Position numbers and translations under genes: made by a program. From an uncultured Caulobacter sp. (GTDB lineage Bacteria; Pseudomonadota; Alphaproteobacteria; Caulobacterales; Caulobacteraceae), in contig CAJYMH010000010.1 in NCBI GenBank assembly GCA_913776195.1, positions 1 to 64,000 of the forward strand: a DNA stretch of 64,000 bases, written 5' to 3'. Under the pieces are notes generated by a model. That model worked only from the letters and a program-made list of their open reading frames with translations. It had not been told where the DNA came from and did not search any database. Below, piece after piece: positions 56,793 through 64,000 of this stretch (position 1 is its first letter; each line of letters begins with the position of its first letter).

Positions 56793-58208
56793 ATGCCCGT
56801 TTTCGGACCCGCCAAGTGGGATTCCGCTCAGTACGGTGTCGGCGCGACCGTCACCTGGAGTTTCGCCGAAGGCGCCCTTGGCGGCCTGCCGTCCGGCTAC
56901 ACCAGCATGACGCCGATCGCCGCGGGCTTCCGCGCCTTGGTCCAGGCCGCCTTCGACGCCTGGGAGGCGGTGGCCAACATCGACTTTGTCTGGGTGGCCG
57001 ACGCGTCTAACGTCAATATCCGGATCGGGGACGCGCCGATCGACGGACGGCCCGGCGCGGGGCAGGGGTCCACCCTGGCCACGGCGCAGTTCTGGTATCG
57101 CGGCGGCGAGATGAGCGTCGCCCAGGTCTATTTCGACGTCGACGCCTATGACCGGGGCAACTTCTACAGCACCGCCGTTCATGAGATCGGCCACGCCATC
57201 GGACTGGAGCACACCACGATCCAGAACGCGGTGATGTACCCGCAGATCACCAGCGCCAATCGTGACGGCGTTCTCACTTCGGATGACCTCGCCGGCATCC
57301 AGACGCTCTACGGCGCCAAGGCCGCTTCCGGGGCCAGCGCTACGGTCAGTGTGCTGCAGGCGAGCTTCGAGCATGTGCTGCGGGTGAACCCGGCCACGGC
57401 GCCCGCGACGCTTGTCCTGTCCGATGGCGCAGTCGTTTCCAATCCCATGAAGGCCTTCGCGGATCTGCTGCCCGGCATGGCGGCGCAGATCGACCGCGGC
57501 GCCCTGAGTCTCGCCGACGCCCGCGCCCAGATCGCCGGCTGGGCCGACACGACCACTTCGGTGGCCAATCTTTCCTATGATTTCTTCACCGGCCGCACGC
57601 CCCGCGAAGACGGCCTGGACTTTCTGGTCAACAGCGGCGGGAACGCCAATGACCTGAACGACCCCTACTATGCGCGGTTCAATATGGAGAACCGCTACAT
57701 CAACTTCGCCGTGAACCTGGGAAAGCTGGGGGAGGGGCGAGCCGATTTCGCTGACGACTATGGCGGTCTCAACCTGCGGCAGGCGACGGCGAAGGCCTAT
57801 GGGGAGATATTCGGGATCGGGGCCACCGACGCCAAGGTCTCCGCCCTTCTGACCGGGACCCGCATAGACTACTTCATCAGCTATGGCGGCGACGGTCAGA
57901 ACGGGACCGGGACCAAGGCGGCCATGGTCGGCTGGCTGCTGGCCGAGGCGCAAAAGGCCGACGAGGGTCCCTATGTGACGGCTAACAACCGCTTCCTCAT
58001 CGACCTGGCGCAGGACGGCGTCGCCCAGTTCAATGTTCACCTGCCCGCGGCCTATGGCGCTTCCGCGCTGGTCGAGGGTTCCGGTAATCTGGAGATGCAC
58101 GCCGAATCCTACTGGAGCAATCCGCAGCTTGACCTGGAGCTCGGGAGCCAAGCTGAGCCTTGGGGCGTTGTGCGGAACCAGGCTGTCGAATACGCCGAGC
58201 TGGTCTGA
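56793..58208 (+). CDS. Matrixin-type metalloprotease with RsaA-like surface-anchor domain
   Basis: A 471-residue protein without an N-terminal signal. Residues 1-175 form a matrixin/serralysin-type zinc protease with HEIGHAIGLEH (residues 130-140) and the Met-turn AVMYPQ. Residues ~215-420 resemble the N-terminal LPS-anchor domain of the Caulobacter S-layer protein RsaA: YDFFTGRTPREDGLDFLV, NDLNDPYYARFNMENRYINF, and IDYFISYGG. A C-terminal part of ~50 residues follows. Absence of a signal suggests type I secretion via a C-terminal signal, as for RsaA and serralysins. Start ATG after GGAGTGAG. The RsaA match is from memory. Confidence 0.82.
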   Translation: MPVFGPAKWDSAQYGVGATVTWSFAEGALGGLPSGYTSMTPIAAGFRALVQAAFDAWEAVANIDFVWVADASNVNIRIGDAPIDGRPGAGQGSTLATAQFWYRGGEMSVAQVYFDVDAYDRGNFYSTAVHEIGHAIGLEHTTIQNAVMYPQITSANRDGVLTSDDLAGIQTLYGAKAASGASATVSVLQASFEHVLRVNPATAPATLVLSDGAVVSNPMKAFADLLPGMAAQIDRGALSLADARAQIAGWADTTTSVANLSYDFFTGRTPREDGLDFLVNSGGNANDLNDPYYARFNMENRYINFAVNLGKLGEGRADFADDYGGLNLRQATAKAYGEIFGIGATDAKVSALLTGTRIDYFISYGGDGQNGTGTKAAMVGWLLAEAQKADEGPYVTANNRFLIDLAQDGVAQFNVHLPAAYGASALVEGSGNLEMHAESYWSNPQLDLELGSQAEPWGVVRNQAVEYAELV

Positions 58209-58271: not shown

Positions 58272-59387
58272 ATGGCCGCACAGCCCGTCACCTCGCGTAC
58301 CTCGCTGATCATCATCGCCGCTGTGGCGGTGGGCTTCACGCTCTACTTCCTTCGCGGCATCCTCACGCCGCTCGCCCTGGCGATGTTCCTGGCCGTGATG
58401 ATCGACGGCTTCGCCCGGTTGCTGAAGGACCGCATCCCCGGCTTTCCGGCGCGGGCGGCCATGCCGGCGGCGGTCGTCTTCTCCATCCTATTCCTGGGTC
58501 TGACCCTGTGGTTCGTGGCCGCCAACGCCGCGGGTTTCGTGAACCAGCTGGTCAACTACGGGCCGCGCATCGACGGTCGGATCGCACAAGGGGCGGATTT
58601 CCTGGGCGTCGCCGCCCCGCCGCCCGTGCGCGAACTGATCGGGCGCTTCAATCCGGCCCGCTACATCGGCGCCGTGGCCGGCGGGTTCCAGAACTTCGCC
58701 TCGGACGCGGTGTTCGTGCTGATCTATCTCGGCTTCATCATCGCCTCGCGCCAGGGCTTCCAGCAAAAGGCCAAGGCGCTGTTCCCGGACGAGGCGGAGC
58801 GTCAGGAGGCGGGCAAGACCTTCGACCGCATCCGCAGCGGCGTGGAGCGCTATCTGTGGATTCAGACCGTCACCGGTCTGATGATCGCCTTCGGCTCGTG
58901 GATCGCTATGGCTGCGGTCGGGTTGGACAGCGCCCTGTTCTGGGCCTTCCTGATCTTCCTGGCCTCCTACATCCCCATCGTCGGCGGCGTGATCGGCGTG
59001 GCCCTGCCGCCCGTCTTCGCCCTGGTCCAGTTCGAGACCTGGTGGCAGGCGTTCCTGCTGCTGGGCATCCTGCAGGGGGTGCAGTTCGTGGTCGGCAATG
59101 TGGTCCAGCCGCGCATGCAGGGCGACAGCCTCAACATGGATCCGGTGGTGGTGCTGCTGGCCCTGGCCTTCTGGAGCCTGGTCTGGGGTTTGCCGGGCGC
59201 GTTCCTGTCCACGCCGCTGGCGGTCATGACCATGGTTATCCTGGCGCAGTTCGAAGGCGGGCGGCGCGTCGCGATCCTGCTTTCGGCGGACGGCGACCCC
59301 CTGGGCATGGATGATCGGCCGGTCAAAAGCCCCCGGAAACGGGCCGCCGCCGCCCGGAAAAATTCACCCGCAAAACCTTCTTCCTGA
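58272..59387 (+). CDS. AI-2E/PerM-family transporter
   Basis: A 371-residue polytopic membrane protein of the AI-2 exporter-like family (PerM, YdiK): SLIIIAAVAVGFTLYFLRGILTPLALAM, then PPVRELIGRFNPARYIG and FLIFLASYIPIVGGVIGVALPPVFAL near the end. About eight membrane segments and a basic cytoplasmic tail (KSPRKRAAAARKNS). Family members have been linked to autoinducer export or Na+/H+ antiport; substrate unknown. ATG at 58272. It is separated from the protease gene by 63 bp. Confidence 0.88.
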   Translation: MAAQPVTSRTSLIIIAAVAVGFTLYFLRGILTPLALAMFLAVMIDGFARLLKDRIPGFPARAAMPAAVVFSILFLGLTLWFVAANAAGFVNQLVNYGPRIDGRIAQGADFLGVAAPPPVRELIGRFNPARYIGAVAGGFQNFASDAVFVLIYLGFIIASRQGFQQKAKALFPDEAERQEAGKTFDRIRSGVERYLWIQTVTGLMIAFGSWIAMAAVGLDSALFWAFLIFLASYIPIVGGVIGVALPPVFALVQFETWWQAFLLLGILQGVQFVVGNVVQPRMQGDSLNMDPVVVLLALAFWSLVWGLPGAFLSTPLAVMTMVILAQFEGGRRVAILLSADGDPLGMDDRPVKSPRKRAAAARKNSPAKPSS

Positions 59388-59677
59388 GGGGGCTTTAATC
59401 TCTGTCTGGTCTCCCTATCTAGAGATCATCGGACGATCCCCCAGGTCCGAAACGCGGATCGGCGAAAACCGCCGAAACCGCTCAAGGCGACGCCATTTCC
59501 CCCATGGCGAGCCGTTGCGCCGCCGGATTTCCCCCATCCGGCGGCGCTTTCGCGTTCACAACGTCGCAAATCCCGATTTTTTCCAAATGAGGGGTTGTCT
59601 CCCCTCCCGTGTCGGGGTTGATCCCTTCTGAACGCGGGCAAGCGCGCCCGCGGGAGGAATAAAAACGGGGTTACCCT
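59388..59677 (+). other. Structured 290-bp region upstream of gdhZ
   Basis: No protein gene. Four successive hairpins occur between 59491 and 59652: CGCCAT-TTCCCCC-ATGGCG, GCGCCGCCGGAT-TTCCCCC-ATCCGGCGGCGC, GAGGGG-TTGTCT-CCCCTC and CGCGGGC-AAGCGC-GCCCGCG; the last stops just before the GGAGG of gdhZ. The first two share the same loop. It may encode a small RNA or act as a gdhZ leader. Confidence 0.6.
59517..59550 (+). terminator. Strong hairpin, possible terminator
   Basis: Perfect 12-bp stem GCGCCGCCGGAT/ATCCGGCGGCGC with loop TTCCCCC, followed by TTT. It could end the permease transcript (130 bases after its stop) or a short upstream RNA. Its loop is the same as in the preceding smaller hairpin at 59491-59509. 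Confidence 0.65.
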
Positions 59678-62600
59678 ATGAGCGGCGCAAAAGTCCGCCC
59701 GTCAGTCGCAGCTGACTTCGAATCTGATGCCTTGAAGAAGGCGTTCTCCGCGCAACTTGGCGCGGCGGCGCCCTCCGCCGAGGGTTTCCTGATCCAGGTG
59801 ATCGATGATTGCGCCCCCGACGAACTTGTCGGGATGAGCGAAGGCGATCTCGCCGCCATCCTCGCCGACTTCTGGCGCTTCGCCAGCACGGACGGCCTGA
59901 CCGATCCGGCCATCCGACTGCGCCGCGCCGCCGGCGAAGGCGGCCGCGACCTGGGCTACGACCTGCTGGAGATCGTCCAGCCCGACCGCCCGTTCCTGGT
60001 CGATTCCATCATGGGCGAGATCGCCGATCTCGGCTTCGCCGTCCGCGCCATGTTCCACCCGGTGGCCGAGCTGGCGGGCGTCCGCCGCTCGATGATCCAG
60101 GTGCACCTCGATCCGGTGGGCGAGGACCGCGAAGACGCCCTGGTCGCCGCCATCCACGCCACCTTGGCCGACGTGAAGGCGGCGGTGGAGGATTTCGCCG
60201 GCATGCGCGCCCTGATGCGCCGAACGGTGGAGGAGCTTCGCGCCGCCCCGGCCCCGGAATCAGCCGCCGAGCGTGAAGAGCTGATCGCTTTCCTGTCCTG
60301 GCTCGAGAGCGACCATTTCGTTTTCCTGGGCGCCCGCACCTACGAATATCCGCGCACCGCCGACGGCGGCTATGCGGCTGAAGAGCCGCTGTACCAACCG
60401 GAAGACAGCCTGGGCGTCCTGCGCGACCAGTCGCGCGCCGTCCTGCGGCGCGCCAGCGAGCCGGCCATCCTGTCGGCCCAGTTGCGCAAGCACCTAGAGG
60501 TCGGCGACCCGGTGGTGGTGGCCAAGTCCAACCTGCGCTCGCGCGTCCACCGCCACGCCTATATGGACTATGTGGGGGTCAAGCGTTACGGCGCGGACGG
60601 CAAGCCGTCGGGCGAGATCCGCTTCGTCGGCCTGTTCACCGCCGAGGGCTATGAGGCGCCCGCGCACGAAGTGCCGCTGATCCGCCGCAAGATCGCCGGC
60701 GTCACCCAGCGCGCGGGCTTCGCCCCTGGCAGCCACAACGCCAAGCGTCTTCGCAACATCGTCGAAACCTATCCGCGGGACGAACTGTTCCAGATGGGCG
60801 AGGACGAGCTCCTCGCCATCGCGCTGGGTGTTTTGCACCTTTACGATCGGCCGCGCGTGCGCTTGTTCGCCCGCCGCGACCCGTTCGACCGCTTCGTGTC
60901 GATCTTGCTGTTCGTGCCGCGCGACCGTTACGACTCAGGCGTCCGCGCCCGGGCCGGCGACATTCTGGCCCAGGCCTTCGGGGGTCGGGTCTCGGCCTAC
61001 TATCCCAGCTTTTCCGACGCGCCCCTGGCGCGGGTTCACTACATCATCGGCGTGGCGCCGGGCGAACATCCCAGCCCGGATCTTTCGGCGGTGGAGGCCC
61101 AGATCGCCGAAACCGCCCGCACGTGGGAGGACCGCTTCGAGGCGGCCGCCCGCGACGGCGGCGTGGCTCGCGGGACGGTGGGCGAGACCCTGGCCCGTTA
61201 CGCCAGCGCCTTTTCGCCGGGCTATCGCGACGAGAACGACGCCGCCGAAGCCCTGGCCGACATGGCGGTGATCGAGGACATGTCCGCTGACGAGCCGGTC
61301 CGCATCCGCGCCTTCCGCAAGCCTACCGACACGCCGCTGCAGTTCCGCTTCAAGCTGTACCGCCCGCGCGAGGCGGCCCCGCTGGCCAATGTCCTGCCGA
61401 TCCTTGAGCACATGGGCCTGAAAGCCCTGATCGAGGAAGGCAACAAGGTCACGCCGATCGGCCCCGACGGCGAGGCTCGCCCGGTCTGGGTGCATGAATT
61501 CCTGCTGCAGGACGATCAGGGCGAGCACCTGCTGTTCGCGGACGCCCGCGCCCCGTTCGAGGCGGCCTTCACGGCGGTCTGGACCGGCCAGACCGAAAGC
61601 GACGGGTTCAACCGCCTGGTGCTGGAGCTTGGCATATCCTGGCGCGAGGCGGCCCTGATCCGGGCCTTGGCCAAGTACCGCCAGCAGAGCGGGCTTGATC
61701 CGAGCCAGGCCGTCCAGGAAGAGGCGCTCAGCGCCCACCCCGGCGTCGCCCGCCTGATCCTCGATCTGTTCCGCACCAAGTTCGACCCGGCCCTCGCACC
61801 GGACGCCGAGGCCCGCGAGACCCAGGCCCAGTCGATCATGGCCCAGGTGGTCGAGGCCCTTCAGGCCGTGGCCAGCCTGGATCACGACCGCGTCCTGCGC
61901 CGCCTGGCCCTGCTCGTCGGGGCGGTGAAGCGCACCAACTTCTACCAGCAGGACGCCGACGGCGCGCCCAAGCCCCACATCAGCTTCAAGGTCGCCAGCC
62001 GCGAGCTGGACGACCTGCCGGCGCCCAAGCCCTATCGCGAGATCTTCGTCTGGGCCCCCCATGTGGAGGGCGTCCACCTGCGCTTCGGCCCGGTGGCGCG
62101 CGGCGGCCTGCGCTGGTCCGACCGTCGCGACGACTTCCGCACCGAAGTGCTGGGCCTGGTGAAGGCGCAGCAGGTGAAGAACGCCGTCATCGTGCCGGTG
62201 GGCTCCAAGGGCGGCTTCTATCCCAAGGCCCTGCCGCGCGGGGGGACCCCGGACGAGACCCGCGCCGCGGCCATCGTCGCCTACAAGACCTTCCTGTCCG
62301 GCCTTCTGGACATCACTGACAACCTGGGGGCAGACGGCGAGGTCATCCGCCCGGCCGGCGTCATCGCCCATGACGGGGACGATCCCTATCTGGTCGTCGC
62401 CGCCGACAAGGGTACGGCGACCTTCTCGGACATCGCCAACGGCCTGGCCGACGACTACGGCTTCTGGCTCGGCGACGCCTTCGCCTCGGGCGGGTCGGTG
62501 GGCTACGACCACAAGGTCATGGGCATCACCGCGCGCGGCGCGTGGGAGGCGGTGAAGCGCCATTTCCGCGAGCTGGGCAAGGACATCCAGACCGAGCCCT

Positions 62601-64000
62601 TCACCGTGGTCGGCGTCGGCGACATGAGCGGCGACGTGTTCGGCAACGGCATGCTGCTGTCCAAGGCGACCAAGCTGCTGGCCGCCTTCGATCACCGCCA
62701 CATCTTCCTGGATCCCGATCCGGACCCCGCGACCTCGTGGGCCGAGCGCGACCGGATGTTCAAGCTGCCGCGCTCGTCCTGGGACGACTACGACCGCAGT
62801 AAGATCTCCAAGGGCGGCGGCGTATTCGCCCGTAGCCTGAAGACCATCCCGCTGTCGCCGGAAGTCCAGGCCGCCTTCGACCTGAAGGCCGACGAGGTTT
62901 CGCCGGCCGACCTGATGACCGCCATCCTCAAGAGCCGCGCCGAGCTGCTCTATCTTGGCGGCATCGGCACCTACGTGAAGGCCAAGGGCGAGACCAACGC
63001 CGAGGCCGGGGACAAGGCCAACGACGCCGTGCGCGTCAACGGCGCCGACCTGCGGGTCAAGGTGGTGGGCGAGGGCGCCAATCTGGGCCTGACCCAGGCC
63101 GGCCGCATCGAGTTCGCCCGCAACGGCGGCCGCATCAACACCGACGCCATCGACAACTCCGCCGGGGTCGACAGCTCCGACCACGAGGTCAACATCAAGA
63201 TCCTCACCGGCATGGTCGAGCGGGGCGGCAAGCTGACCCGTCCCGACCGCAACACCTTGCTGGCCTCGATGACCGACGAGGTCGCCAAGCATGTGCTGGT
63301 ACACAATTACGACCAGACCCTGGCCCTGACCCTTGCCCAGCAGGGCGGGGCGGCGGACCTCGACGCCTATCAGCGCTTCATGGCCGATCTGGAGAACCGG
63401 GGCCGCCTGGACCGCAAGGTCGAGGGCCTGCCCGACGCCACGGCGCTGATCGAACGCGGCCAGACTGGGAAGGGCCTGACCCGTCCCGAACTGGCGGTGC
63501 TGCTGGCCTATTCGAAGATCGATCTGTTCGACGAGATGGTGGCCTCCACCGGCCCCGACGACGCCTTCTTCGAGTCGACGCTCGAGGCCTATTTCCCGAA
63601 GGCCATGGGCCAGTACGGCGACGAGATGAAGCGTCACCGTCTGCGGCGCGAGATCATCTCCACGGTCTTGTCCAACGAGATCGTCAACCTGTGCGGCCCG
63701 ACCTTCCCGTTCCGCCTGCGCGGCGCGGCGGGTTGCGACACCCGCGCCATGGTCCTGGCCTTCGAGGCGGCGCGCCGCATCTTCCGCCTGGACGAGGCGT
63801 GGGACGCTATCGCCGCCCAGGACCTGAAAATCCCCGCGGCGGCCCAGACGGCGCTGTTCTCGGAAGTCTCGCTGGTCCTGCGCCGCCAGACCTTCTGGCT
63901 GGCCCGTCGCGCCACGCGCGGCGACGTCACCGTGCAGGGTCTGATCGACGCCTACCGCCCGGCCGCCGACGCCCTGCGCGCCGAAGGCTCGGCCCTGCTG
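59678..64000 (+). CDS. gdhZ: Large NAD-specific glutamate dehydrogenase, 5' part
   Basis: The track lists no ORF here because the frame is open to the window end (1441 codons seen). It encodes the ~180-kDa GDH type: N-terminal ACT-like regulatory segments ([23 protein letters not shown]), then the catalytic domain with [43 protein letters not shown] and the NAD fold [18 protein letters not shown]. It deaminates glutamate to 2-oxoglutarate. In C. crescentus GdhZ also binds FtsZ and links metabolism to division. ATG at 59678 after GGGAGG. Upstream lies a chain of hairpins. Confidence 0.93.
   Translation, partial: [1441 protein letters not shown]

Follow-up and report, generated by a model that had tools for sequence, protein, structure and literature searches.

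Small RNAs (sRNAs) with C-rich loops include NfeR1, which regulates nitrogen metabolism and symbiosis in rhizobia, and sX13, which regulates virulence in Xanthomonas. The ar14/NfeR1 RNAs (RF02344; Smr14C2 in Sinorhizobium) comprise three hairpins with C-rich anti-Shine-Dalgarno (anti-SD) loops on highly variable stems, the last hairpin being a terminator. NfeR1 silences mRNAs through its three anti-SD loops, which act at mRNA starts, takes part in a feedback on NtrBC, and has the alphaproteobacterial sigma-70 promoter CTTAGAC-N17-CTATAT (PMC10746234). The sX13 RNA of Xanthomonas has three stem-loops, with 4C, 4C, and 5C loops, whose targets are G-rich motifs close to the starts of mRNAs and whose action does not depend on Hfq (PMC3771888). 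Within the Caulobacteraceae, GsrN pairs with the G-rich leaders of mRNAs through a C-rich 5′ loop (PMC5869019), and SisA-D, members of the ar8 family, are Caulobacter sRNAs with an anti-SD signature (PMC12559287). The element described here, which lies upstream of gdhZ in a Caulobacter genome, is probably new as a conserved element, although its working type is known, and no name was found for the RNA gene. A literature search found no paper that gives a name to an RNA before gdhZ; the C. crescentus ortholog may already be among the 106 new ncRNAs of PMC4117421, and CCNA_R0098/R0099 would, going by their numbering, fall in the right interval.

The sequence analyzed is a stretch of 64,000 nucleotides (the window) from an uncultured Caulobacter sp. 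The product of gdhZ in Caulobacter coordinates metabolism with cell division. The features of the locus, all on the + strand, are as follows.

58272-59387, +, perM, gene for an AI-2E family (PerM-like) transporter (Pfam PF01594, E 1.5e-36)
59393-59421, +, promoter-like sequence recognized by its conservation in relatives: CTTTAAT (59393-59399), 16 nt, TATCTA (59416-59421), with a predicted start at ~59428
~59428-59553, +, predicted small RNA of ~125 nt with putative ends (covariance model, synteny, alignment)
59429-59450, +, 5′ hairpin TCGGAC-GATCCCCCAG-GTCCGA (hairpin scan, genus-wide alignment)
59459-59475, +, middle hairpin TCGGCG/CGCCGA, with a loop that lacks a C-run (hairpin scan, folds)
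59491-59509, +, hairpin 1, stem CGCCAT/ATGGCG and loop TTCCCCC (hairpin scan, counterparts in relatives)
59517-59547, +, hairpin 2, GCGCCGCCGGAT-TTCCCCC-ATCCGGCGGCGC, terminator-like with a 12-bp stem (hairpin scan, alignment)
59589-59606, +, hairpin 3, GAGGGG-TTGTCT-CCCCTC, in the gdhZ upstream region
59633-59652, +, hairpin 4, CGCGGGC-AAGCGC-GCCCGCG, adjoining the gdhZ ribosome-binding site
59678-64000, +, gdhZ, gene for the large NAD-dependent glutamate dehydrogenase (Pfam Bac_GDH_CD, E 2e-251), which runs off the window

Directly upstream of the transporter gene, positions 56793-58208 (+ strand) encode Peptidase_M10 (matrixin) and RsaA_NTD (S-layer) domains in one protein.

The original prediction placed four hairpins before gdhZ, and hairpins 1-4 were all found where it had located them; the 5′ hairpin, which is a third C-loop hairpin, had been overlooked. 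Hairpins are common in this G+C-rich genome, with 179 perfect hairpins on the + strand of the window, so that chance, base composition, or a repeat at the DNA level within an intergenic region rich in G+C has to be considered as their origin. When both strands of the 64 kb were searched for perfect stems of at least 6 bp enclosing a loop of 5-11 nt that contains CCCCC, only three such hairpins were found; all three are on the + strand and inside 59429-59547, and the minus strand has none. In eight shuffles of the whole window, 0-4 CCCCC-loop hairpins appeared anywhere, and shuffles of the element (n = 2000) never gave more than one. The folding energy of 59480-59680 is -91.1 kcal/mol, as compared with -72.8 ± 4.3 kcal/mol in shuffles (z = -4.2, lower than 200 of 200). 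The confinement of the C5-loop hairpins to the element, together with the synteny, the single copy per genome, and the compensatory changes described below, argues against an origin by chance or as a DNA repeat, which is refuted by conservation and covariation and which we consider scarcely credible.

A DNA search found the element in 30 of 61 genomes, and every match was in the genus of the window (g1). At all 30 loci it occupies the same position, on the same strand: the left neighbor is an AI-2E-type transporter gene in each case and the right neighbor is gdhZ in 29, the remaining contig stopping before gdhZ. In L002 (G013) the gdhZ match is in two pieces with a slightly shifted register at about codon 327, perhaps reflecting a frameshift or an assembly error. 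A covariance model (R1) matched once in each of 43 genomes of the genus, which partly overlap those that supplied sequences to the model; its middle helix is misplaced, and the matches depend on sequence and on the other two stems. The match in the window spans 59425-59558 (E 4.3e-9, with the genome of the window contributing a sequence to the model). The element is also legible upstream of gdhZ in 22 of 26 further genomes of the genus (18 of the 26 without a model match), most of the loci that the model had missed being among the 22, and many of the matches missed by the model can be attributed to one clade that has an extra C-loop hairpin. Among the remaining loci of the 26, the element has been lost in G209 (L046), contig ends cut L068 and L069, and L064 is not assessable.

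Throughout the genus the element comprises, in order, CTATCT, the 5′ C-loop hairpin, a middle stem that varies in place and sequence between relatives, hairpin 1, and hairpin 2. Covariation was taken from a separate in-register structure count and not from model R1. In this count, 96.9% of cells are paired in register as compared with 30-54% when the structure is slid, and two-sided changes occur in 36 cells as compared with 10.4 in shuffles. In the genus-wide alignment, the 5′ stem has compensatory changes in four of its five pairs with 100% of cells paired. The hairpin 2 stem is likewise paired in 100% of cells, varying mainly at its top pair (UA, CG, or AU), and its counterpart in relatives is a terminator-like GCGCCGCCGG-(C-run)-CCGGCGGCGC. 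Hairpin 1 has little covariation of its own; its top pair changes from T-A to A-T in L044, and its counterpart in relatives is CCCGCC-(C-run)-GGCGGG. C-runs occupy the loops throughout the relatives although the stem sequences differ. The covariation of the 5′ stem and the persistence of the C-runs suggest that the stem is maintained by pairing and the loops are maintained as C-runs. On this comparison of sequences, hairpins 1 and 2 are the 3′ half of a conserved, predicted RNA gene at ~59428-59553. We conclude that this interval of the + strand is probably a stand-alone gene for a trans-acting C-rich-loop anti-SD sRNA that shares the plan of ar14/NfeR1 and possibly its ancestry.

Upstream of the first hairpin, nearly all relatives have CCTATCT at a near-fixed spacing, with a CTTRAAC-like -35 sequence. 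The arrangement, similar to CTTRAAC-N16-CTATCT, resembles the NfeR1 promoter; the promoter is weak by consensus, and a scan with the sigma-70 consensus did not detect it. Hairpin 2 of the window is followed by TTTCGCG, a weak T-tract, and the T-tract is poor across the genus. The weak consensus promoter and the poor T-tract count against an sRNA, as does an ar14 score of only 20.8 bits in the window.

Hairpins 3 and 4 have a different distribution. Counterparts of hairpin 3 occur only in the closest relatives (L002, L003, and L044) and are missing from the others; hairpin 4 is confined to the same three, the other relatives having the gdhZ promoter at its position. In 22 of 30 relatives, the stretch separating hairpin 2 from gdhZ contains this promoter, TTGA-N14-GGCTAGGTT or a near form, usually 30 nt upstream of the gdhZ ATG; the clade of the window lacks the exact form. 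The limitation of hairpins 3 and 4 to one lineage, and the use of the interval as the gdhZ promoter in most relatives, suggest that they are part of the gdhZ promoter or leader and not of the RNA. The single chain of four hairpins first proposed is therefore divided into two C-loop hairpins of the RNA and two lineage-specific hairpins of the gdhZ promoter or leader. Conservation in relatives, which had been put forward as a check, was found for the C-loop hairpins in synteny, 5′ stem covariation, and C-runs, and reaches only the closest relatives for hairpins 3 and 4. A role for the GAGGGG arm of hairpin 3 as partner in an alternative fold was also not borne out, the arm being confined to the closest relatives with no conserved alternative fold seen.

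The original prediction had offered a gdhZ leader switch as the other reading. In a cis-acting leader, transcription from the upstream promoter would pass through the C-loop hairpins and hairpin 2 would be a regulated attenuator of gdhZ. Linkage of the element to gdhZ is kept over several families, and read-through is plausible because the T-tract is weak in the genus of the window. In each of six genomes of genus g17, gdhZ begins 20-60 nt past the last hairpin, which leaves no room for a separate promoter, so that the RNA could be a gdhZ leader there. In most of g1, however, the conserved promoter downstream of hairpin 2 would supply gdhZ, no conserved alternative fold was seen, and in some g13 genomes the element stays by perM with other sequence before gdhZ, being 1.2 kb upstream of gdhZ in L120. 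A leader switch is thus not supported in g1 and is possible in g17; as a general account of the element, a cis-acting leader is unlikely. A related alternative is an RNA with two functions, in which termination at hairpin 2 would yield a 5′-UTR-derived sRNA and read-through would yield the gdhZ mRNA, the balance depending on lineage. The compact layout in g17, as compared with the spaced layout and separate promoter in g1, is consistent with such an RNA, but the promoter in g1 makes read-through unnecessary there, and we regard this alternative as quite improbable. Within the preferred interpretation of a separate sRNA gene, the sRNA may double as the gdhZ leader in g17.

Beyond the genus, a divergent version of the element, with a C-run and then a terminator-like hairpin, was found upstream of gdhZ in many other genera of the Caulobacteraceae and in two further families of the order, f2 and f4; it was not seen upstream of gdhZ in the f3 and f5 genomes that were read. 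The counterpart of hairpin 2 has a strong T-tract on the + strand in several genomes, including L095, L100, and L107. In L102, L105, L106, and L107, which come from two other families of the order, the region upstream of gdhZ contains a near-identical GCGTGCGTCCCCCCA followed by a terminator-like hairpin; the C-run in these four has no obvious hairpin loop around it.

At the Rfam gathering thresholds only a tRNA was found in the window, and the similarities to C-rich-loop families there are weak and below threshold: sX13, 26.9 bits; ar7, 25.8 bits; CcsR1, 21.0 bits; and ar14, 20.8 bits. The gathering score of ar14 (58.8) was reached in none of 149 genomes, the best value in Caulobacteraceae being 43.7 bits. 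That value belongs to the counterpart of the element in L095; the counterpart in L082 scores 40.2 bits, and scores across g13 and g20 are 35-44 bits. The perM-linked element is the best genome-wide ar14 match in seven of the eight g13 genomes with an ar14 match that were fetched, and the g20 match also falls on it; in g1, among the ar14 matches listed, the positions lie away from the element. Around the ar14 loci that were fetched from other orders, neither gdhZ nor perM occurs within a distance of 1.5 kb. The element has the ar14 plan of three hairpins, variable stems, and a terminal hairpin, but it is a single copy beside gdhZ and its loops are plain C-runs. The CCUCCUCCC motif that ar14 carries in three hairpins is absent from the window, where the loops are GATCCCCCAG, TTCCCCC, and TTCCCCC; loops of the g13 counterparts, such as CCCCUCCCCUCCCCCC and CCCUCCCCCUCCC (the latter in L120), are nearer to it. 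We do not identify the element as ar14; it would work in the manner of ar14 and may be derived from it. Other ar14-like pairs of hairpins, again below threshold and distant from gdhZ, were observed at about position 1500 in L117 and L121 (g17), L113 (g13), and L123 (g1), and they are possibly further C-rich-loop sRNAs.

The other families are more distant. The sX13 model (RF02232) matches the window over its full length and shares the three C-loop stem-loops, but the family is gammaproteobacterial, the score of 26.9 bits is below the cut-off of 50, and weak matches (25-26.7 bits) occur in only two fetched relatives. With matches so weak and few, the two RNAs probably resemble each other in plan and not through common ancestry. 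CcsR1 (RF02791), ar7 (RF02342), and 6C RNA (RF01066) also have C-rich-loop hairpins; CcsR1 and ar7 have cut-offs of 65.3 and 60 bits, far above their scores in the window, and 6C RNA, which has two hairpins with six-C runs and a cut-off of 47, is not listed for the window and scores 24.1 bits in L095. GsrN differs in that it carries one C-rich loop, is preceded by a sigma-T promoter, and has reported homologs in the neighborhood of general stress response genes; the present element is flanked by perM and gdhZ at every locus, and inspection by eye of the sequence before it revealed no promoter of the sigma-T type. SisA-D have a single-stranded UUUCCUCCCU after a weak hairpin in place of loop C-runs and occupy other loci. 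SisA-D, GsrN, and ChvR were set aside as the identity of the element by their published descriptions. The proposal of a new sRNA whose C-rich loops could pair with Shine-Dalgarno sequences is supported, at the level of sequence, by the synteny, the covarying stems, the conserved C-loops, and the likeness to anti-SD sRNAs of the ar14 type.

For this predicted sRNA we infer transcription, RNA ends, targets, the direction of regulation, and a tie to nitrogen metabolism. Its transcription would begin at a promoter of its own and stop at hairpin 2, and each of its three hairpin loops, with five cytosines, would initiate pairing to the G-rich (GGGGG-like) regions at which translation of several mRNAs begins; such pairing could block ribosome entry or alter message stability. 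GGGGGAA, the complement of the loop UUCCCCC, is scarce within the window, and GGGGGAA-N2-12-ATG occurs 34 times in this genome as compared with eight for the reversed pattern, with a similar excess in three relatives (~3-6-fold genome-wide in G000, G009, G013, and G193). The excess fits a set of targets with G-rich ribosome-binding sites (RBSs) like those of sX13 (PMC3771888); it may also just mirror general Shine-Dalgarno usage because GGGGG pairs with the 16S tail as well. At the start of ntrB, the best-known NfeR1 target, no conserved G-run was found, which counts against the sRNA. The place of the element beside glutamate dehydrogenase makes a link to nitrogen attractive, if unproven.

A broader proposal, which we put forward tentatively and hold to be doubtful, is that an sRNA derived from ar14/NfeR1 has remained linked to gdhZ across the Caulobacterales while its anti-SD motif drifted from CCUCCUCCC to C-runs. 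Where the locus is spaced, such an RNA would act in trans, and where it is compact, the RNA would belong to the gdhZ leader; it would connect glutamate catabolism with the translation of a regulon with G-rich RBSs. More generally, a conserved C-rich-loop sRNA beside gdhZ would provide the model Caulobacter with an easily tested global riboregulator, and it would exemplify how an anti-SD motif drifts over evolution. Conserved genes with GGGGGAA at their starts, noted as leads only, include a transporter, a TonB-type receptor, and an ECF-type sigma factor, recognized by eye, and an NMT1-like protein, recognized by Pfam.
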